From Synechococcus sp. UW179A (GTDB lineage Bacteria > Cyanobacteriota > Cyanobacteriia > PCC-6307 > Cyanobiaceae), in the NCBI RefSeq assembly GCF_900473965.1, contig NZ_UCNJ01000018.1:62001-126000 (forward strand): 64,000 nt of DNA, read 5' to 3'. Under the pieces are notes generated by a model. It searched no databases and was not told the DNA's origin. It saw only the letters and a list, made by a program, of their open reading frames with translations. Shown one piece after another: positions 39,569 to 49,778 of the stretch (position 1 is the stretch's first letter; every line of letters begins with the position of its first letter). A program made the translations under genes and the position numbers.

Positions 39569-41065
39569 TCAACTGGCATCAACCCAACTGCCATGCAGGC
39601 CATGGGGTATCGCCAACGGCAGCTCGAACACCGCCAGCTCACGCAGATCAGCCGCGTCGAGGATCACAAGATCAGAACCCTCACGATCACCGTTCCACAC
39701 CAGTTCCAGCACCCAGCCATCATCTTCAGCGCTTGCCCCATGCCTGGGAACCATCAATGGCTCACTCACAAAGCCGTGGGGCACGGCACTCCAAATCTGG
39801 CGCTCACCGCTAACCAGATCAAGCTTTTTGACCACCTGAAGCGGATCATTACCCTGCTCGCGCGCTGCGGCTGCCATCCAGGCGAAGCGGCAGTGAAGAC
39901 CTTCCTTCTCAGGGTTCACCATCGCGAACTCACAGCAGCGTTCACTCAGACGCGTGGTCTGAACCGTGGCGCTCTGCAAGTTGATGCGGCACTGCTCGAG
40001 CAACCCCTCGGGAATTAGATCGAAGTCAACCGCCGCAAAGTCGACATCAGGGCCGATCGAGGGGAAATCGCTGTAGTAGATGCTCTCCACCACCACATCA
40101 CCCTCCTGTTCCCAGGCGTTGAGGTGATGAAACACAAAGCCCTCGGGCGCATCCACAATTCGCGGGGATTGGCCTGCAAAGGCACCGCTGTCGCGTGGAA
40201 TCAGCCAGAACTTGGCCTGACCATCCTGCTTGGATTGCAGGCACTGGGCCGCACCCTTTCTGCCAAACACGAACGGAAGAGGGTTGAAGTCGATCGCGTT
40301 TTGGAGAAACACCGCCCAGTTGGGTGTGATGGCGAAATCGTGCAGGAAGGCGAAGCCGTTGAAGCTGTCACGTCGGTCGCTGAGAAGATCTCCTGCCTTG
40401 ATCCCGGCGGCGGAGTCATCTTCGGTGGCGAATTCCATCAAACGGATGGTGCTGCGTGGCCCGGTATTGACCCCGAAGGTAACCATGCGCGGGCGATCGT
40501 GATGTCCGGGATCGAAGCGAGGATGGGCACTGAAGGCCTCACCTTTCTTCAGAACACCTCCCAGCAGGCTGATGCCGTGGGTGTCGAGGGTTCGAGGATC
40601 GAGCGCATGGGGTTCGGCCGCTTCCCAGAGCGCGAGCAGCTGGTCACCAAGCTGAACAACGCCAGTGTTGGCAATATTTTTCAACCTCAGATCAAAGGCA
40701 TTGGCCAGCGGGCCTCCAGGCTTCTGGCTTCCGAAAACACCTCGATACAGCACCTTGCCCGCCGCTTCCTCGGCCTGCCAGCCAGCAGTGCGCACAAAAC
40801 GATTGGTGAGAGAAACCCCCTCAGCATTGAACTGAATCGCGGTGATCATGCCGTCACCATCAAAGGGATGGTGGACGCGCTGGCCGTCACGCTCCAGTAG
40901 CCCAGGGCCATTGCGATAGAGGGTTCCCAGCAGCTCTGATGGCACCTTGCCCCTCACCGGCTGTAGCGCAACGTCAGTGAGCTCCTGCTCCACATTGCGG
41001 AAGGCGCTGGCCCATTCCGACCGGTTGAAACGTTCAGCGGCGGGAGCGACGGTCACGGAGAACAA
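39569..41065 (-). CDS. Carotenoid cleavage oxygenase (RPE65/CCD family)
   Basis: A 498-residue non-haem iron dioxygenase. The four iron histidines appear in PGHHDRPRMVTFG, FLHDFAITPNWAVFLQN, FVFHHLNAWEQEGDVVVES and, at the C-terminus, IPHGLHGSWVDAS. GTLYRNGPGLLERDGQRVHHPFDGDGMI is the classic N-terminal CCD block. It cleaves carotenoids or apocarotenoids, possibly giving retinal-type products; the substrate is not determined. The start is uncertain: TTG 41065 with GGAG upstream, or GTG 41056. Confidence 0.93.
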   Translation of the reverse strand: MFSVTVAPAAERFNRSEWASAFRNVEQELTDVALQPVRGKVPSELLGTLYRNGPGLLERDGQRVHHPFDGDGMITAIQFNAEGVSLTNRFVRTAGWQAEEAAGKVLYRGVFGSQKPGGPLANAFDLRLKNIANTGVVQLGDQLLALWEAAEPHALDPRTLDTHGISLLGGVLKKGEAFSAHPRFDPGHHDRPRMVTFGVNTGPRSTIRLMEFATEDDSAAGIKAGDLLSDRRDSFNGFAFLHDFAITPNWAVFLQNAIDFNPLPFVFGRKGAAQCLQSKQDGQAKFWLIPRDSGAFAGQSPRIVDAPEGFVFHHLNAWEQEGDVVVESIYYSDFPSIGPDVDFAAVDFDLIPEGLLEQCRINLQSATVQTTRLSERCCEFAMVNPEKEGLHCRFAWMAAAAREQGNDPLQVVKKLDLVSGERQIWSAVPHGFVSEPLMVPRHGASAEDDGWVLELVWNGDREGSDLVILDAADLRELAVFELPLAIPHGLHGSWVDAS

Positions 41066-41115
41066 CAGCGGCGATCTCCATCTTCTCGTAACGGACTGTG
41101 AAGCGCGGCGAAGAC

Positions 41116-41724
41116 TCAGGTCGCCCCTGCTTGCTCAAGCACACCTTTACTGCTGGGAACCGCACCTGCACGCCGCGGGTCAATCTCCGTTGCCATACGC
41201 AAGGCCCGGGCAAAGGCCTTGAAACAGGCTTCAACGATGTGATGGGAATTGGTTCCATCCAGCTGACGGATATGGAGGGTGAGCCCGCTGTTGTTGACCA
41301 CCGCCACGAAAAATTCCTTGACCAGCTCTGTGTCGTAGCGACCGATCTTCTGATTTGGAATGCTGAGGCTGTAGGAGAGATGTGGGCGCCCGGAACAATC
41401 CAGCACGACCTGCACCAGCGCTTCATCCAACGGAGCGACGAAGTGACCGAAACGCACGATGCCGCGCCGATCACCCAGGGCCTGCGCCAGAGCCTGTCCG
41501 ACGGCAATGCCCACGTCTTCATTGGAGTGGTGGTCATCAATGTGGGTATCACCCACCGCATTGATCTCAAGATCAATCAAGCCATGGCTGCTGATCTGAT
41601 GGAGCATGTGATCCAGGAAGGGCACGCCGGTGCTGGCCTGACACTTGCCACTGCCGTCAAGATCCAGGCACACCTTGACATCGGTTTCACCGGTCACTCG
41701 ATGGATCTCGCCTTGTCGCGTCAT
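41116..41724 (-). CDS. hisB: Imidazoleglycerol-phosphate dehydratase
   Basis: A 202-residue histidine-biosynthesis enzyme. Metal-binding motifs are [29 protein letters not shown], the repeated [20 protein letters not shown] region and [18 protein letters not shown]. It is monofunctional (no phosphatase domain). ATG 41724 ([15 protein letters not shown]) is the family start; the frame continues upstream without homology. It is divergent from the geranylgeranyl-reductase-like gene. Confidence 0.95.
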
Positions 41725-41782
41725 CCCATTGCTTTCAGTGACTTCATCGTGCCGCACGAGCAAGCAATCAGAAACCACAACC

Positions 41783-42988
41783 ATGGAATTCCCCGACCTT
41801 GACACCGACGTAAAGAAGAGCAGTGCGCCAGTCAAAGGAAGGGTTCAGGTTCTGATCGTGGGTCTCGGCCCCGCAGGCACAGCCTGCGGAATGGGGCTAG
41901 CGAAAAGTGGTCTTGAAGTGCTGGCGATTGATCGTGCCCACTTCCCGAGAGACAAGATCTGCGGTGATGCCCTGACAGGCGATGCGCTCCGTTTCCTGAG
42001 AGAGAACAAGATCCCCTCCACGATCATCCAGAGATCTGTCAGTGAGACACGCAAACCCAGCTATGCGGAGCTGACGCCCACCCTCGCGGAAGCCAGTGGC
42101 TACTCCCTTCAGGGCACTGGCCTGCGCACGAGGGAAGCGTCCTTTCACAGCATTCGCCGTATCGACCTCGACAACTGGCTGGTTGAGTGCTGCGCGAGAG
42201 CTGGATTGCCCATGGAATTCGGTTGGCAGGTGCAAACGCTCCACCGTCACTCAGCCTCTGATCCCTGGTGCGTCGCAGGCACAATTCGCAGCCGCAAGGG
42301 TCAGGTGCAAGGGAAATTCGAAATCACCGCCGAGGTGGTGGTGGGGTGTGATGGGGTTTCCTCAGTTGTGCAGAACCTGACGCGTGAACAACACGCTGCG
42401 CGACCGATTGCATTGGCGAGCCGAAGATATTCCAAGCGCGACGAAGTTGACACTCCGGACGTTTCACTGATGGATTATCAGTGGCCTCGCAACCCCTCCT
42501 ACGCCTGGCGGTTTTCAGTGAATGGCGGAACCAACGCTGGCATCTACTGGTGTCATCACCGCGACATTCCACCACTCAGCGGTCGCGATCTCCTGGCGCT
42601 CACCCGTCAGCATGCTCCAAGAGGTGACGCCATCAGAACCTGGGGAATTCCGGTTTTAAACGACGACCCCCTGCCCCAATCCCCCTCGGGGATTTTGCTC
42701 ACGGGTGATGCGGCCTCACTGGTCGACCCCATGATCGGGCATGGGATCGACCGCGCCATTCACAGCGGAGAGCTGGCCGGCCAGATCCTGAGCAAAGGAT
42801 TTCAAACCGGCTGCACTGTTGAAACGATCACACACACCTATGAGAGCAACCTTGAAAGTCGGCGGGTTGAGTGGCAAAGAAGCTTCAAGGAAATGGACAA
42901 CATGCTCGCGGGAATCGATCGCACCGCCGAACAGTTCGTCAGAAGTCTGCTCAGATCAGTGATGTTGCCTTCAACAACCCAGCCCTGA
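41783..42988 (+). CDS. Geranylgeranyl reductase-family FAD-dependent protein
   Basis: A 401-residue flavoprotein. The FAD motif [21 protein letters not shown] is followed by [18 protein letters not shown], typical of the GG-reductase group, and [19 protein letters not shown], the second FAD motif. It is not standard ChlP and may reduce another isoprenoid or act as a monooxygenase-like oxidoreductase. ATG 41783 begins [12 protein letters not shown]; upstream codons overlap hisB and are not homologous. It is convergent with fabI. Confidence 0.88.
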
Positions 42989-43021
42989 ATTCGTCGGACC
43001 CAATCTCACAGCACAACTGAA

Positions 43022-43804
43022 TCACATGCCATTGATGCAGTAGCCGGCATCCACGTAGATGGTTTGGCCGGAAATACCGCTTGATAGCTCACTGAGCAGG
43101 AACGCAGCAGTGTTGCCCACTTCCGTCTGGGTGACGGTGCGGCGCAGCGGTGCCTTTTCCTCCACGTTGTGAATCATGTCGAGGATGCCACCAATGGCAG
43201 AGCTGGCCAGCGTGCGGATCGGTCCTGCACTGATGGCGTTCACCCGAACCTGCTTGTCGGGACCGAGCTCGGCGGAGAGATAGCGAACGGATGCTTCCAG
43301 AGCGGCCTTGGCCACACCCATCACGTTGTAATTGGGAATCGCGCGTTCAGCGCCCAGGTAAGTGAGCGTGACCACCCCAGCTTTCTCGCTGAACAGCGGC
43401 TTGGCATGACGACACAGGGGAGCCAGGGAATAAGCACTGATCTCGAGAGCTCGGGCAAAACCCTCAGAGGTTGTGGCGCTGTAATCACCGATCAGTTCCT
43501 CCTTGCCCGCGAAAGCAAGGCAATGCACCAATCCATCCAGCACGCCCCACTTCTGCTTGATCTCTGCGAAGACCATTTCCATTTGAACGGCATCCTGAAC
43601 ATTCAGAGGTAGGAACAACGAAGGTTCAAGGGGAGCGGTGAGCTCACGAACCTTGGTCTCAAAGCGACCTTTCTCGTCAGGGAGATAGGTGATGCCCAAT
43701 TCAGCACCCGCCGCTTTGAGCTGCTGGGCGATGCCCCAGGCAATCGATCGATTGTTGGCGATACCGGTAACGAGGATCTTCTTGCCCGTGAGATCGAGAA
43801 GCAT
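43022..43804 (-). CDS. fabI: Enoyl-[acyl-carrier-protein] reductase (NADH)
   Basis: A 260-residue short-chain reductase doing the final reduction of each fatty-acid elongation cycle. The nucleotide motif is VTGIANNRSIAWGIAQQL and the active site Y-x6-K is in YNVMGVAKAALEASVRYL. AISAGPIRTLASSAI and the C-terminal GQTIYVDAGYCINGM are characteristic. The length is normal. It is divergent from the photolyase-like gene pair. Confidence 0.97.
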   Translation of the reverse strand: MLLDLTGKKILVTGIANNRSIAWGIAQQLKAAGAELGITYLPDEKGRFETKVRELTAPLEPSLFLPLNVQDAVQMEMVFAEIKQKWGVLDGLVHCLAFAGKEELIGDYSATTSEGFARALEISAYSLAPLCRHAKPLFSEKAGVVTLTYLGAERAIPNYNVMGVAKAALEASVRYLSAELGPDKQVRVNAISAGPIRTLASSAIGGILDMIHNVEEKAPLRRTVTQTEVGNTAAFLLSELSSGISGQTIYVDAGYCINGM

Positions 43805-43922: not shown

Positions 43923-44864
43923 GTGCCCCCGCAACCCAGCCCAACATCGCTGTCATGGTCTGAACGGCCTGGAGACCTTTCCAGGGATCTCCCGGACCGC
44001 GGTGCGCTCGAACGCCTGCTGGAAGAGGAGTTCCCGGAGGCGGGCGGAGCGCTCAGCCCATTGCGCGGAGGTCGAGACGCTGCAGAACAAACGCTGAGTC
44101 GTATCGACCCACGGCGCTACACCAAAAGCCGCAATCACCTCAGAGGTGCAGTCACGGGTTTATCGCCTTACATCCGCCACGGTGTGCTCAGCCTCGCCGA
44201 GGTGCGGGATGCCGTGTTCCAGCGCATTCGCAGCCGGAATGAGGGAAGCAAACTGATCAATGAGCTGGGATGGCGGGACTTCTGGCAGCGGATGTGGCGG
44301 GATCTTGGTGATGGCATCCACGACAGCCAGGAAGCGCTGAAAACCGGGCACGATCCCGCCTCCTACGCCAGAGAGCTCCCTGAGGACATCCGCCAGGGAA
44401 CAACAGGTCTGGCATGCATGGACGGATTCCAGAGCGAGCTCATCACCCGAGGCTGGCTGCACAATCACGCACGCATGTGGATGGCTGCTTATGTGGTGCA
44501 TTGGCGCAAGGTGCACTGGAAGGCCGGCGCGGACTGGTTTCTGGAGCATCTGTTGGACGGAGACCCCTCCAGCAACCATCTGAGTTGGCAGTGGGTGGCC
44601 AGCAGCTTCAGCCACAAGCCCTATTTCTTCAACAAAGGCAATCTGGAGCGGTTCAGCGATGGACAGTTCTGCAGGACCTGCTCCAGCAGCGAGCACTGCC
44701 CCTTCGAGGGCAGTTACGAGCAACTGGAAGATCAGCTGTTCGCCAACCAGGGCGCCATTCGAGACGTCCCCCCCAGACGCAGCCGCAATCGCAGGCAGCG
44801 CTCAGGCCGAGAACAGAACCTGAACGGAATCGGTCATGCGGCCATGGCCCGACCAAAGCGATAA
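43923..44864 (+). CDS. Photolyase-like FAD-binding domain protein with four FeS-type cysteines
   Basis: 313 residues from a GTG start. It is the C-terminal, FAD-binding half of a photolyase/cryptochrome without the antenna domain: LINELGWRDFWQRMWRD, TGLACMDGFQSELITRGWLH, NHARMWMAAYVVHWRK and SNHLSWQWVASSFSHKPYFF follow the usual photolyase order. The protein has exactly four cysteines, C165, C250, C253 and C259 (FCRTCSSSEHCPF). Their spacing parallels the [4Fe-4S] ligands of bacterial FeS cryptochromes/photolyases. The arginine-rich tail (PPRRSRNRRQRSGR) could bind DNA. The missing antenna domain is encoded by the next gene. Function (repair or signalling) unknown. Confidence 0.87.
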   Translation: MPPQPSPTSLSWSERPGDLSRDLPDRGALERLLEEEFPEAGGALSPLRGGRDAAEQTLSRIDPRRYTKSRNHLRGAVTGLSPYIRHGVLSLAEVRDAVFQRIRSRNEGSKLINELGWRDFWQRMWRDLGDGIHDSQEALKTGHDPASYARELPEDIRQGTTGLACMDGFQSELITRGWLHNHARMWMAAYVVHWRKVHWKAGADWFLEHLLDGDPSSNHLSWQWVASSFSHKPYFFNKGNLERFSDGQFCRTCSSSEHCPFEGSYEQLEDQLFANQGAIRDVPPRRSRNRRQRSGREQNLNGIGHAAMARPKR

Positions 44865-44867
44865 GCC

Positions 44868-45296
44868 ATGTCTCTTCAACGACCAGTGATCTGGGTGCAC
44901 GAGGAAGCACTCGGCGCTAACAACCCAGCGCTGCTTGAGCGGCCGGATCACCCCGCCATTTTTGTCTTTGACACCCAATGGATCCGAGAAGCCTGCATCA
45001 GCCGCAAACGACTCGGCTTTCTGTACGAAAGCGCCCTGGATCTACCCATCACCTTGCGCAAGGGTGATGTGGACAAGGAGGTGATTGCCTTCGCTGAACG
45101 TCACCATGCCGATGGCGTCCTGAGCAGCCTGCCCGTCGACCCCCGCCTACAACGCATCGCTGCGTCCATCGAACAGCACTGCCCGCTGGAACTGCTGGCA
45201 CAGGAACCATTCGTCGATATGCCTCGGCCCCCGAGGCTCGGACGCTTCAGTCGCTACTGGCGAGAGGCTGAACCGTTGGTCTGGGAACGCTTCTGA
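44868..45296 (+). CDS. Separate photolyase N-terminal (alpha/beta antenna) domain protein
   Basis: 142 residues resembling only the N-terminal Rossmann-like domain of photolyases: VIWVHEEALGANNPALL stands where WFRxDLRxxDNPAL is usual, then AIFVFDTQWI, KRLGFLYESALDL, LRKGDVDKEVIAFAERHHAD. The RxDLR arginines are replaced, so a normal chromophore site is doubtful. ATG is three bases after the stop of the FAD-domain gene, so the two are surely co-transcribed and may form one two-chain protein. The 3' end overlaps a convergent lipoprotein gene by 43 bp. Confidence 0.82.
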   Translation: MSLQRPVIWVHEEALGANNPALLERPDHPAIFVFDTQWIREACISRKRLGFLYESALDLPITLRKGDVDKEVIAFAERHHADGVLSSLPVDPRLQRIAASIEQHCPLELLAQEPFVDMPRPPRLGRFSRYWREAEPLVWERF

Positions 45297-45883: not shown

Positions 45884-46501
45884 ATGGCTCTCACTCCCTC
45901 AACCATGCTGCCCCTTGGCGAAGCGTTACCCGACTTCAAGTTGCCCGTGGTGAGCGGAAGCTTGAGGGATTCCGCTGCCGCAGCAACTCTCAGCAACACC
46001 GATCTACCTGCACAACCACTCCTGGTGATGCTGATCTGTGCACACTGCCCCTTTGTGAAGCATGTGGAACCCGAGCTGAGCAGGCTCGCTGAGCACTACG
46101 GCCCAGCCGTCACCCTGCTGGCCGTCTCCAGCAACAGCCTCACCACCCATCCACAGGATGGTCCCGAGGGCCTGCGCCATCAGGCAGAGCAGCGGCAGTG
46201 GAGTTTCCCCTATCTCCTGGATGAGCAGCAGAACCTGGCCAAAGCCCTCAAGGGTGCATGCACGCCGGAGTTCTACTTGTTCAGCCCCAATGGTGCAGAC
46301 CTTCAAACCTTGCGCTATCGCGGCCAGCTGGACGGCAGCCGCCCAGGCAATGAGGTGCCACTGGATGGTCGCGATCTGCGCAGAGCACTCGATGCGGTCC
46401 TCCATGGCCAACCTGTCAACGAGGACCAGCACCCATCCGTCGGCTGCAATATCAAGTGGCATCCCGGACAAGAGCCACCGTGGTTCGGGGCACCGGCTTA
46501 A
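45884..46501 (+). CDS. Thioredoxin-fold (AhpC/TSA-like) protein
   Basis: 205 residues of the thioredoxin-like redoxin group common in cyanobacteria. The redox motif is C52-A-H-C55 in LLVMLICAHCPFVKHVEPEL, followed by WSFPYLLDEQQNLAKALKGACTPEFYLF with the cis-proline region. It is cytoplasmic with no signal peptide. It probably reduces peroxides or disulfides; the partner is unknown. It lies 10 bp upstream of the aminotransferase gene. Confidence 0.87.
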   Translation: MALTPSTMLPLGEALPDFKLPVVSGSLRDSAAAATLSNTDLPAQPLLVMLICAHCPFVKHVEPELSRLAEHYGPAVTLLAVSSNSLTTHPQDGPEGLRHQAEQRQWSFPYLLDEQQNLAKALKGACTPEFYLFSPNGADLQTLRYRGQLDGSRPGNEVPLDGRDLRRALDAVLHGQPVNEDQHPSVGCNIKWHPGQEPPWFGAPA

Positions 46502-46511
46502 GGTGCCACCC

Positions 46512-47723
46512 ATGCAGGTGCCTCCCTTCAGTCTCAGTCAGCAGCTCGCCGACCTGGGGCCGGAACTCGATGAAGCCGCGCTGCGTGTGTTGCGCAGCGG
46601 TCAGTACATCGGCGGCACTGAAATCAAAAGCTTTGAAACCGGCTTCGCGGCTGTGGTCGGCACGGCCCACGCCGTTGGTTGCAACAGCGGCACCGATGCC
46701 CTGATCCTGGCCTTGAGAGCCCTCGGCATCGGTGCCGGTGATGAGGTGATCACAGCCTCCTTCAGCTTCTTTGCCACAGCTGAAGCCGTCAGCGCAGTGG
46801 GTGCGACGCCCGTTTTCGTGGATGTGGATCCACTCACCTACCTGATCGATCTCGATCAGATCACTGCTGCGATCACTCCCGCGACCAAAGCCCTGATTCC
46901 TGTACATCTGTTCGGTCGGCCCGTGGACATGACCCGGTTGATGGCGATCGCCAAAGATCACAATCTTTGCGTTGTTGAAGACTGTGCTCAAGCCACTGGT
47001 GCGAGCTGGAATGGACGACCAGTCGGCAGCTGGGGGGATATGGGCTGCTTCAGCTTCTTTCCCACCAAAAACCTTGGAGCGGCTGGTGATGCCGGCGCCG
47101 TGACCTGCCACGACGCAGCTCTTGCTCAACGCATGCGCGAACTGGCCGTGCACGGCATGCCCCGCCGTTACCTGCACACCGAGCTCGGATACAACAGCCG
47201 GCTTGATGCGATGCAAGCCGCTGTGCTCAACGTGAAACTGCCCCGGCTGACCCAATGGGTGGAACGCCGCCGGGAGATCGCCCAGCGCTACCGCGAAGCT
47301 CTAAAAGATGTACCAGGCTTGCTACTCCCCGATCCATCCACAGGAAATGGCCACGGCTGGAATCAGTTTGTGGTGCGTGTCACAGTCTGCCCAACTGACA
47401 TCTCCTCCAGTGGCAGTCATCGCCCCAGTGAGTTCGGACTACCCAGCAGTCATTGTCGCGACTGGCTGAAACAGAGCCTGCAGGATCGAGGCGTCAGCAC
47501 GATCATCTACTACCCCATTCCCATTCATTGCCAACCGGCTTACGCCGATCAGCATCAAAACACCCGTCTACCAGTAACCGAGCAGCTCTGTAGTGAAGTG
47601 CTGAGTTTGCCGATCTTCCCGGAGCTCTCCAGCGAGCAGCAGGAGCAGGTGATTTCCGTGCTGCGTTCGTTGCTCATCCAGACCGCCCCGCTGGATTCAC
47701 AAACCTGCAGCGTGGCGGCCTGA
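46512..47723 (+). CDS. DegT/DnrJ/EryC1/StrS-family aminotransferase
   Basis: 403 residues. It is a PLP aminotransferase of nucleotide-sugar pathways, with NSGTDALILALRALGIGAGDEV, EDCAQATGASWNG and the PLP lysine in SFFPTKNLGAAGDAG, plus GYNSRLDAMQAAVL. It would convert a keto-sugar nucleotide to an amino sugar for a surface glycan. An insert of about 25 residues (TDISSSGSHRPSEFGLPSSH) near residue 300 looks lineage-specific. ATG 46512 (MQVPPFSL) is the family start. Confidence 0.92.
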   Translation: MQVPPFSLSQQLADLGPELDEAALRVLRSGQYIGGTEIKSFETGFAAVVGTAHAVGCNSGTDALILALRALGIGAGDEVITASFSFFATAEAVSAVGATPVFVDVDPLTYLIDLDQITAAITPATKALIPVHLFGRPVDMTRLMAIAKDHNLCVVEDCAQATGASWNGRPVGSWGDMGCFSFFPTKNLGAAGDAGAVTCHDAALAQRMRELAVHGMPRRYLHTELGYNSRLDAMQAAVLNVKLPRLTQWVERRREIAQRYREALKDVPGLLLPDPSTGNGHGWNQFVVRVTVCPTDISSSGSHRPSEFGLPSSHCRDWLKQSLQDRGVSTIIYYPIPIHCQPAYADQHQNTRLPVTEQLCSEVLSLPIFPELSSEQQEQVISVLRSLLIQTAPLDSQTCSVAA

Positions 47724-47725
47724 GC

Positions 47726-49204
47726 TCAGGATCGGATCGTGGCGTAAAGCCCCTTGAAGTAGGCCTGCTGCTTCTTGTGATCGATCAAAAGCTCGGGATA
47801 TCCGCGACGCTCAAGTGCACCAATCTCACCGCTGAGCAGATCCTTGGTGTTCACATGGCGCAGCTCAGGCAACCAGTAACGGATGTAATCACCCTCGGCA
47901 TCGAACTTTGATGCCTGCGTCGCAGGATTGAAGATTCGCAAGGGCTTGGGATCCATGCCGCTGCTGGCACTCCACTGCCAGCCGCCATTGTTGGCCGCAA
48001 GATCACCATCAACCTCCAGCTCCATAAAGGCCCGCTCGCCCCAACGCCAGTCGCAAATCAGGTCTTTGACCAGAAAAGAAGCGACGATCATGCGACAGCG
48101 ATTGTGCATCCAACCGCTCTGATTGAGCTGGCGCATCGCTGCATCGATGATCGGCATCCCGGTTTGGCCCTGTCTCCAACAGGCAAACCACTCTTCGTTG
48201 TTCTGCCAAGGGAAGCGTGTCCATTGCTCGCGGTAAGGGCCATCAGCCAGTTCAGGGAAATGGAACAACGCCTGCTGGTAAAACTCACGCCAGCCCAGCT
48301 CCTGCTCCCACACCGTGATCGCATGCTGCTGTTCATCACTGCGCACGATCTGCTTGGCGCTCTGGGCCGCACACCAGGCCTGCCTGGGACTGATCGTGCC
48401 GACACTCAGAGCCGCACTCAACGAAGAAGTGCCCTGCTGACCAGGGAAATTGCGATCCGGCTCATAGCCAAGCAGGGGCCCATCAGCGAAGGTCATCAAC
48501 TGATCCGCCGCCGCAGCTTCTCCCGGCCTGCAAGGACACACGTCCGTACCAGCAAATCCATGACTGCTGCGCAATCGCTCAAGCTCAGACTGTCCCTGGG
48601 AACAAAGCCGGCCGAGATCTCCCTCCGCAGAGCTGATCTGCTGGAGCTGGGATTGGTTCAGATCCTGCAGGCCTAGGGGAGCGTCTGTGGTGCTTGGGGC
48701 AAGTCGCTCAACCTGACCACGCCAATTGCGCAGAAAAGGTCCATACACGCGGTAAGGGTCACCTCCGCCGGTTTTGAGTGACTCCGGCGCCACCAGCAGC
48801 TGGTCCCAGTCGACCAGCAGCTTGCGCCCATCGGTTTGCAGGGCCTTGGCCACCTGACGGTCGCGCTCACGGGCATAGGGCTCCACATCGCGACTCCAAA
48901 CCACGGTGGGTGCGTCCAGAAAGGCCGCCAACTGCGGCAGCAGCACAACCGGATCACCGGCCAGTACCAGCAGGCGGCTACCAGCCTGCAGCCAGCGCTG
49001 TTGCAGTTCGACCAGGCTCTCCACCAGAAACCACAACCGAGCGGGTGCCATCGGCGGCAGCTGGGGTGGCGGCGTGATCAGAGCCGGATCGAGCACATAA
49101 ACGCCCGTGACAGCCGGGCCCATTGCCACGGCCGCCTCAAGACCTGAATTGTCCGCCAAGCGCAGATCGCGGCGGTGCCAGAACAGCGTGCGGGGGGTGC
49201 TCAT
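47726..49204 (-). CDS. phr: Deoxyribodipyrimidine photolyase (CPD class I type)
   Basis: A full-length 492-residue photolyase that repairs UV-induced cyclobutane dimers with blue light. The N-terminal antenna domain begins LFWHRRDLRLADNSGL. The FAD domain has WEQELGWREFYQQAL, TGMPIIDAAMRQLNQSGWMH, NRCRMIVASFLVKDL and the signature NNGGWQWSASSGMDPKP with FNP after it. It is complete, unlike the split pair 2.4 kb upstream. The antenna (8-HDF or MTHF) cannot be decided by eye. It is followed by a NUDIX gene on the same strand. Confidence 0.95.
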   Translation of the reverse strand: MSTPRTLFWHRRDLRLADNSGLEAAVAMGPAVTGVYVLDPALITPPPQLPPMAPARLWFLVESLVELQQRWLQAGSRLLVLAGDPVVLLPQLAAFLDAPTVVWSRDVEPYARERDRQVAKALQTDGRKLLVDWDQLLVAPESLKTGGGDPYRVYGPFLRNWRGQVERLAPSTTDAPLGLQDLNQSQLQQISSAEGDLGRLCSQGQSELERLRSSHGFAGTDVCPCRPGEAAAADQLMTFADGPLLGYEPDRNFPGQQGTSSLSAALSVGTISPRQAWCAAQSAKQIVRSDEQQHAITVWEQELGWREFYQQALFHFPELADGPYREQWTRFPWQNNEEWFACWRQGQTGMPIIDAAMRQLNQSGWMHNRCRMIVASFLVKDLICDWRWGERAFMELEVDGDLAANNGGWQWSASSGMDPKPLRIFNPATQASKFDAEGDYIRYWLPELRHVNTKDLLSGEIGALERRGYPELLIDHKKQQAYFKGLYATIRS

Positions 49205-49217
49205 CCTTGGTTGAGAT

Positions 49218-49778
49218 TCAGAGACCGAGCAACTGCTTGGCCCGATACCAAGCGGTCACGCTTTTGCCATCCAGCCACTCCTCGCCTGAGCCCAAGCGAG
49301 CATCCAGTTCGGCAGGACTCATCTGCAGAACCTCGAGATCCTCATCGTCGTCACCTGCCGGAGGGTTCTCCAGGACTGTGAGATCCCTGGCCAGGAAGCA
49401 ATGGATCACCTCGTCGGAATACCCAGGACAAGGCAACATTGGACCGAGGGCATCCCAGCGGGCGGCGCTGTAGCCCGCTTCCTCCCCGAGCTCCCGCTGC
49501 ATCGACTCCAAAGGATCTTCTCCCTCCTCAAGCGTGCCGGCCGGGAACTCCAGCAGCCTGGCCTGAACAGCAAAGCGGTACTGACGCAGCACCACCACCT
49601 GTCCCTCATTGGTGATCGGCACAGCCAGGGATGCTCCCGGATGCTTGATGATCCCGAAGCTGCCCTCCACCCCCATGGGCAACCGGATGCGGTTGCGCTC
49701 GAAGCGCACCTTGCGCGCATCCAGGGCATCGATGGTCTCCAGCAGCTCATAGGGCTCTGGAGCCGGCAGCGGGGCCAT
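49218..49778 (-). CDS. NUDIX hydrolase, ADP-ribose pyrophosphatase-like
   Basis: 186 residues. The Nudix box GTLEEGEDPLESMQRELGEE fits G-x5-E-x7-R-E-x2-E-E. The N-terminal domain-swap-like beta segment VRFERNRIRLPMGVEGSFGI and the VVVLRQYRFAVQARLLEFPAG stretch are those of ADP-ribose pyrophosphatases. It removes ADP-ribose or similar nucleoside diphosphates. In transcription order it is upstream of the photolyase, 13 bp away, so an operon is likely. Confidence 0.92.
   Translation of the reverse strand: MAPLPAPEPYELLETIDALDARKVRFERNRIRLPMGVEGSFGIIKHPGASLAVPITNEGQVVVLRQYRFAVQARLLEFPAGTLEEGEDPLESMQRELGEEAGYSAARWDALGPMLPCPGYSDEVIHCFLARDLTVLENPPAGDDDEDLEVLQMSPAELDARLGSGEEWLDGKSVTAWYRAKQLLGL

Follow-up and report, generated by a model that had tools for sequence, protein, structure and literature searches.

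A split, order-reversed photolyase of marine Synechococcus that probably consists of two partner proteins with a CPD-type pocket

The adjacent genes phr4 and phr5 of Synechococcus sp. UW179A probably encode two separate polypeptides that together form one photolyase of the cyclobutane pyrimidine dimer (CPD) type, carrying FAD and, as its cysteines suggest, a [4Fe-4S] cluster. They lie in a window of 64,000 nucleotides, the whole stretch of DNA analysed here (contig NZ_UCNJ01000018.1, positions 62,001 to 126,000), whose relevant features are collected in Table 1. Both genes have been published before, under the names phr4/phr5, from marine Synechococcus (Haney 2022, PMC9426592). The accessible part of that paper describes the reversed order, the four conserved cysteines and a fused form, phr6, in two Cyanobium strains, leaves undecided whether the product is a single frameshifted protein or two, and guesses at (6-4) repair from the cysteines. 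New here is a comparison of sequences that speaks for two obligate chains and a CPD-type pocket; a literature search, with most subscription journals outside its reach, found no paper stating either.

Table 1. Position of the phr4/phr5 pair, its diagnostic motifs and the neighbouring photolyase and NUDIX genes in the window
Feature	Position	Strand	Remarks
phr4	43923..44864	+	GTG start, 313 aa; photolyase FAD-binding half, short photolyase-like
phr5	44868..45296	+	ATG start, 142 aa; stand-alone alpha/beta domain, homologous to photolyase N-terminal domain
C165 codon TGC, within TGLACMDGF	44415..44417	+	From sequence; CCCC pattern in 72/80
C250-x2-C253-x5-C259-P-F block	44670..44705	+	From sequence; compare CDTC...CPF of PhrB
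phr4/phr5 junction TAA-GCC	44862..44867	+	ATG next, same frame; variable among relatives
phr3, complete class I (8-HDF type) CPD photolyase	47726..49204	-	PF00875, PF03441; TIGR03556 2e-188, below curated cut-off
NUDIX hydrolase	49218-49778	-	PF00293, 7.6e-16

The two open reading frames share one reading frame across a three-base spacer (TAA-GCC-ATG). FAD_binding_7 (PF03441, E 2.4e-22) is the sole Pfam domain of the 313-residue Phr4, and together with the homology of Phr5 discussed below this bears out the preliminary description of a photolyase split in two, with the FAD half first and three bases between the halves. Since alignment of many relatives to Phr4 begins only at about residue 14-19, its start codon is uncertain. 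A full listing confirms that Phr4 has exactly four cysteines, at positions 165, 250, 253 and 259. Their conservation among homologues had been set beforehand as a check that could refute the assignment, and all four are present in 72 of 80 Phr4 sequences (79 loci plus the window), so the pattern is not a matter of chance. The remaining eight comprise two rows truncated at contig ends and six true losses, with C165 alone retained in L072 and L074 and no cysteine of the four in L070, L075, L078 and L079. These six FAD-first relatives, having lost their cysteines (three in L072 and L074), retain the pocket, and 12 more Burkholderiales-family relatives appear to resemble them.

Membership of Phr4 in the CryB/PhrB (FeS-BCP) family, as first proposed from the cysteines, did not hold up. 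A Phr4 profile compared with the PDB is nearest to class I photolyases (1tez, 2.7e-25; 1owl, 2.8e-25), followed by class III (4u63, third) and then DASH, whereas PhrB is matched weakly at 0.004, over a range (Phr4 72-259 against PhrB 266-460) that includes all four PhrB cysteines and H365-H366. No FeS-BCP chain is found among the 44 PDB sequences matched by the single Phr4 sequence at E <= 0.001. Likewise, neither Phr4 nor Phr5 matches the PhrB-like N-terminal domain PF04244 (DPRP) at E values up to 1; the domain's sole match in the window's genome is Phr2. Sequence distance, the absence of the HH pair (N181 is not a His) and the missing PF04244 are the grounds for rejecting membership. What Phr4 shares with FeS-BCP enzymes is the overall fold and four corresponding cysteines; those enzymes differ in being one chain with the normal domain order, an HH motif and a distant sequence. 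In PhrB the cysteines are C350, C438, C441 and C454, and C350 lies 15 residues ahead of H365, as C165 lies 15 residues ahead of H180 in Phr4; the last spacer is shorter in Phr4 (C-x5-CPF against C-x12-CPF). The four cysteines of Phr4 correspond to those of PhrB.

Structural comparisons are closer. In the fold search with the joint model described below, which aligned the Phr4 half only (model 2-282), (6-4) FeS-BCP chains and class I chains score about equally (Z 18.2 and 17.6), and Foldseek ranks class I first at 3.9e-8 and PhrB at 2.8e-7. A tree of 68 FAD domains, flagged for long branches and uneven composition, groups Phr4 with Phr6 and Prochlorococcus Phr7 (89/96), separate from class I and Phr1 (100/99). 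A quick tree had joined Phr7 to the cysteine-poor L070 and L072 in a clade (91) that the finished tree lacks. As judged from its sequence, Phr4 is closest to class I CPD photolyases, and the description "short photolyase-like" (SPL) suits it. The likeness to class I lies in the pocket and FAD-site residues given below, with H182 at the place of R350; the difference is that the antenna domain, which is N-terminal within the single chain of class I enzymes, is absent from the Phr4 chain.

Residues E283, W286, N349 and M353 of the Anacystis photolyase map to E114, W117, N181 and M185 of Phr4, and W390, W392, D380, D382 and N386 map to W222, W224, D212, D214 and N218. We take the E, W, N, M and W among them to form the CPD pocket, and the D, D and N the FAD site. 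E114, N181, W222, W224, D212, D214 and N218 are conserved in all 80 sequences, M185 in 79/80 and W117 in 77/80, whereas the Trp triad residue W314 is not conserved (A146). In PhrB, and also in the window genome's Phr2, the position of N181 is taken by the second His of the HH pair of (6-4) enzymes. A class-I-type pocket with N181 in place of His favours CPDs over (6-4) products as the likely substrate of Phr4/Phr5.

A less likely reading makes Phr4/Phr5 a (6-4) photolyase of the PhrB kind, which is what Haney et al. predicted from the cysteines and the UV-C phenotype. According to the accessible part of their paper, interruption of phr4 in strain RS9916 lowered UV-C survival 20-30 times while its effect under UV-B was not measurable, and E. 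coli with the phr4/phr5 region gained UV-C protection that was not significantly greater in the light than in the dark (PMC9426592). The authors there take the UV-C-without-UV-B phenotype as a sign of (6-4) repair (PMC9426592), and it does count against the CPD reading; the correspondence of the cysteines with those of PhrB and the tie between PhrB-type and class I enzymes in structure searches point the same way. Weighing against (6-4) repair are N181 and M185 in place of the His of (6-4) enzymes, the invariance of the class-I-type pocket (E114, N181, W222 and W224 in 80/80), the far closer sequence relation to class I, and the presence in the window's genome of another candidate (6-4) enzyme, the HH-bearing Phr2. 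In addition, an SPL with an Fe-S cluster was reportedly found to repair CPDs by Xu in 2021, a study that PMC9649867 cites.

Phr2 itself (L113, 562-2076) is PhrB-like (PF04244) and has the HH motif without the four-cysteine block. Haney et al., in the available text, guess that it repairs CPDs (PMC9426592), and its Prochlorococcus relative PromaPL is called a prokaryotic (6-4) photolyase without cluster in the part of another paper open to us (PMC9178010). In a Prochlorococcus-like genome (G173), the genes for Phr2 and Phr7 (C1:724523 and C1:725886) share a strand, with about 1.4 kb between their starts.

That the protein is a light sensor (cryptochrome), not a repair enzyme, was also raised in the preliminary description and appears improbable. 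A CryB-like cysteine pattern and the lost RxDLR arginines would suit a sensor, but the lesion-pocket residues are fully retained, and the UV-C survival defect of the mutant and the survival gain in E. coli, as given in the accessible text (PMC9426592), point to UV survival; a sensory role finds no support here.

In the two-chain photolyase that we favour, Phr5 would supply the domain that Phr4 lacks. Pfam and NCBIfam searches of Phr5 gave no match up to E 1, and its sequence found nothing reliable in the PDB. However, the Phr5 family profile aligns with the N-terminal domain of complete photolyases (hhalign, 97.1%, E 6.5e-11, 135 columns), against 0.1% for an unrelated FabI control. The predicted fold of Phr5, modelled alone with pLDDT 92.3, matches residues 1-126 of CryB (3zxs; Z 12.2, 2.0 A across 108 residues) and residues 2-147 of 1iqr (Z 11.8 across 132 residues), with universal stress proteins next at Z about 10. 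Invariant in 30 aligned sequences are H11, D35, KR47-48, F51, Y53, E54, G66, F115, RF126-127 and YW130-131. Where the window's complete photolyase has RRDLR, Phr5 reads HEEALG, in agreement with the early remark that the antenna half has lost its RxDLR arginines.

The Phr5 profile also matches the C-terminal part of cysteine-less FAD-first photolyases (L075, L078, L079 and 12 further loci) at 90.4% and E 1.4e-6; the same C-terminal parts compared alone with the canonical photolyase N-domain gave no match (0.5%). The C-terminal Z-domain of Prochlorococcus Phr7 looks like Phr5 by eye, but hhalign with 8 Phr7 sequences gave 0.3% and equivalence is not claimed. Phr7 against the proteobacterial FAD-first C-terminal parts gave 0.1% (hhalign).

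The proposal of a two-chain enzyme is supported by the distribution of the genes, also where they are unlinked. Among 146 cyanobacterial genomes sampled across the phylum (Phr4 at E <= 1e-70, Phr5 at E <= 1e-10), both proteins occur in the same 27 and neither in the other 119, the co-occurring sets spanning 7 families. The genes are unlinked in 10 of these 27: four genomes have them on one contig, 0.48-4.9 Mb apart, and six on different contigs; in the four one-contig cases the Phr5 frame is open in all and the Phr4 frame is intact with the motif in two. Within the family of the window, 77 of 201 genomes have both, none has Phr4 alone, two have Phr5 alone and 122 have neither (the Phr4 cut-off was E <= 1.8e-79, and the next match followed at 1.5e-27). 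One of the two Phr5-alone cases sits at a contig start, and the other is a 72-residue piece in a genome 74% complete. Fisher values of 5e-30 and 4e-54 for these co-occurrences are descriptive only, as kinship was not corrected for. Where a Phr4 locus has no neighbouring Phr5, Phr5 was found elsewhere in the genome in 12/12 cyanobacteria tested and in one Chloroflexota. Overall, Phr5 was present in 16 of 20 genomes searched via their Phr4 loci; the four without a match are the fused, cysteine-less L075, L078 and L079 together with L055, where the contig stops directly behind phr4.

The window pair and the published one are alike in gene order, in the nearby phr3 and in having fused forms, and the RS9916 cysteines C169, C254, C257 and C263 match the four of the window (PMC9426592, in the part available). 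The published strains are described there as having a seven-base spacer and a frameshift, whereas the window has three bases (GCC) and stays in frame. Across 52 two-gene loci, the junction is in frame 0 in 16, frame 1 in 9 and frame 2 in 27, the stop is TGA in 25, TAA in 22 and TAG in 5, and the distance lies between -104 and +265 bases (overlaps at 17 loci, gaps of at most 60 at 31 and longer gaps at four). The overlap of -104 (L016) comes from a draft assembly whose Phr4 contains an ambiguous residue, and that of -44 (L061) hinges on the chosen start codon; the junction frames do not depend on start choice. A seven-base gap is found at one locus of the 52 (L025). The junction is in frame 0 in WH7803 (L005) and a one-base overlap in RCC307 (L011), and these strains therefore depart from the constant seven-base spacer that the paper reports. 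The seven-base spacer describes the published strains and is not a property needed for function.

Single-chain forms with the FAD domain first also exist, at 8 of 79 loci, from Acidobacteria (three from one bin), one Planctomycetaceae and two Methylophilaceae; such fusions are thus known in Acidobacteriota, Planctomycetota and Methylophilaceae. In addition, phr4-phr5 forms one open frame in 25 of the 77 genomes of the window's family. Together with the fused phr6 already in print (PMC9426592, accessible part) and the frame shared by both genes in the window and 15 other loci, these fusions could suggest that a ribosomal frameshift or stop-codon read-through yields a Phr6-like chain, a possibility taken from Haney et al. 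We consider it highly improbable, as frame, gap and stop codon vary across the 52 loci, the seven-base gap is limited to L025, WH7803 is in frame 0 and the genes are unlinked in 10 of 27 genomes. Co-occurrence of unlinked genes and the use of all three junction frames favour two obligate partner chains over a programmed frameshift. That the pair represents decaying fragments of a formerly complete photolyase, as the split frames and a second frame without Pfam match might imply, has next to no plausibility and is refuted by the conservation of both halves at 90/109 loci (tblastn), their co-occurrence across 7 cyanobacterial families and the invariant motifs in Phr4 and Phr5 alike.

Joint structure prediction of the two chains, suggested at the outset, gave a confident fold. 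The AlphaFold2 model, in which the TAA was read through as a modelling device, has pLDDT 91.3 and pTM 0.89, and only the linker 288-309 falls below 50. Four blocks of Phr5 111-142 rise in pLDDT from about 79/77/82/59 alone to 96/91/95/94 in the joint model, whose alignment is deeper than that of the Phr5-alone model; the C-terminal helix of Phr5 with the FSRYW motif thus gains confidence beside Phr4, from an alignment that is also deeper. The high pTM suggests a defined docking of the modelled Phr5 on Phr4.

Under the scenario we favour, each gene would give its own polypeptide, and the two would combine into one photolyase. In it, Phr4 would bind FAD and carry the DNA-lesion pocket, and we infer a [4Fe-4S] cluster from the Phr4 cysteines. 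Phr5, the alpha/beta domain of an ordinary photolyase N-terminus, would be supplied in trans, or C-terminally in natural fusions; it most likely docks on Phr4, closing the FAD site, and perhaps holds an antenna pigment. Repair would be driven by blue light: an electron donated by reduced FAD would split a cyclobutane pyrimidine dimer and then go back to the FAD.

As noted early on, the pair is distinct from the complete photolyase nearby, which is a different enzyme, phr3. The NUDIX hydrolase gene ends 13 bases ahead of phr3 on the same strand, an arrangement resembled by a nudix-photolyase operon in Prochlorococcus MED4 (PMC9649867, available part). Upstream of phr4 (39569-43804) are an RPE65-type carotenoid oxygenase, hisB, an FAD-dependent oxidoreductase and, by eye, a FabI-like gene; downstream of phr5 (45884-47723) are an AhpC/TSA-family protein and a DegT-type aminotransferase.

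Phr4 and the SPLs are both without an N-terminal alpha/beta domain and nearest to class I/III, and some SPLs are said, again from the work of Xu in 2021, to have four cysteines. The accessible part of one paper (PMC9649867) describes SPLs as having no alpha/beta domain, whereas the Phr4 of the window has it as a partner protein, Phr5. S. elongatus has an SPL, SePhrC, named without partner in the available text (PMC9178010). In a genome (G253) with a photolyase fragment 95% identical to S. elongatus, a single Phr4 adjoins a single Phr5, and we infer through this one genome that the cysteine-bearing SPL is Phr4 and Phr5 its missing domain. Related enzymes, NewPHLs or SPLs, are described as repairing CPDs in single-stranded DNA with an inverted topology (PMC13274461, in the part available). 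NewPHL and Prochlorococcus Phr7 likewise have the FAD domain first and an alpha/beta-type domain last, and Phr7 groups with Phr4 and Phr6; they differ in being one chain without the four cysteines, whereas the window pair is split, though its fused relatives are single-chain.

If the two-chain, CPD-type reading is right, it answers a question that the literature had left undecided, one protein or two from phr4/phr5, and the likely substrate is corrected as well. A natural split photolyase would also be a means to test the role of the alpha/beta domain in FAD sealing, antenna function and DNA binding, and the purpose of the Fe-S cluster. With less confidence, we lean towards the view that the SPL with cysteines, instead of being a one-domain ancestor, serves as large subunit in an iron-sulfur CPD photolyase of two obligate subunits, whose small subunit is the displaced antenna domain, often encoded far away and hence unnoticed outside picocyanobacteria. 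If true, purified SPLs were studied without their partner subunit, and the finding would bear on the proposal that SPLs are the one-domain ancestors of the photolyase family.
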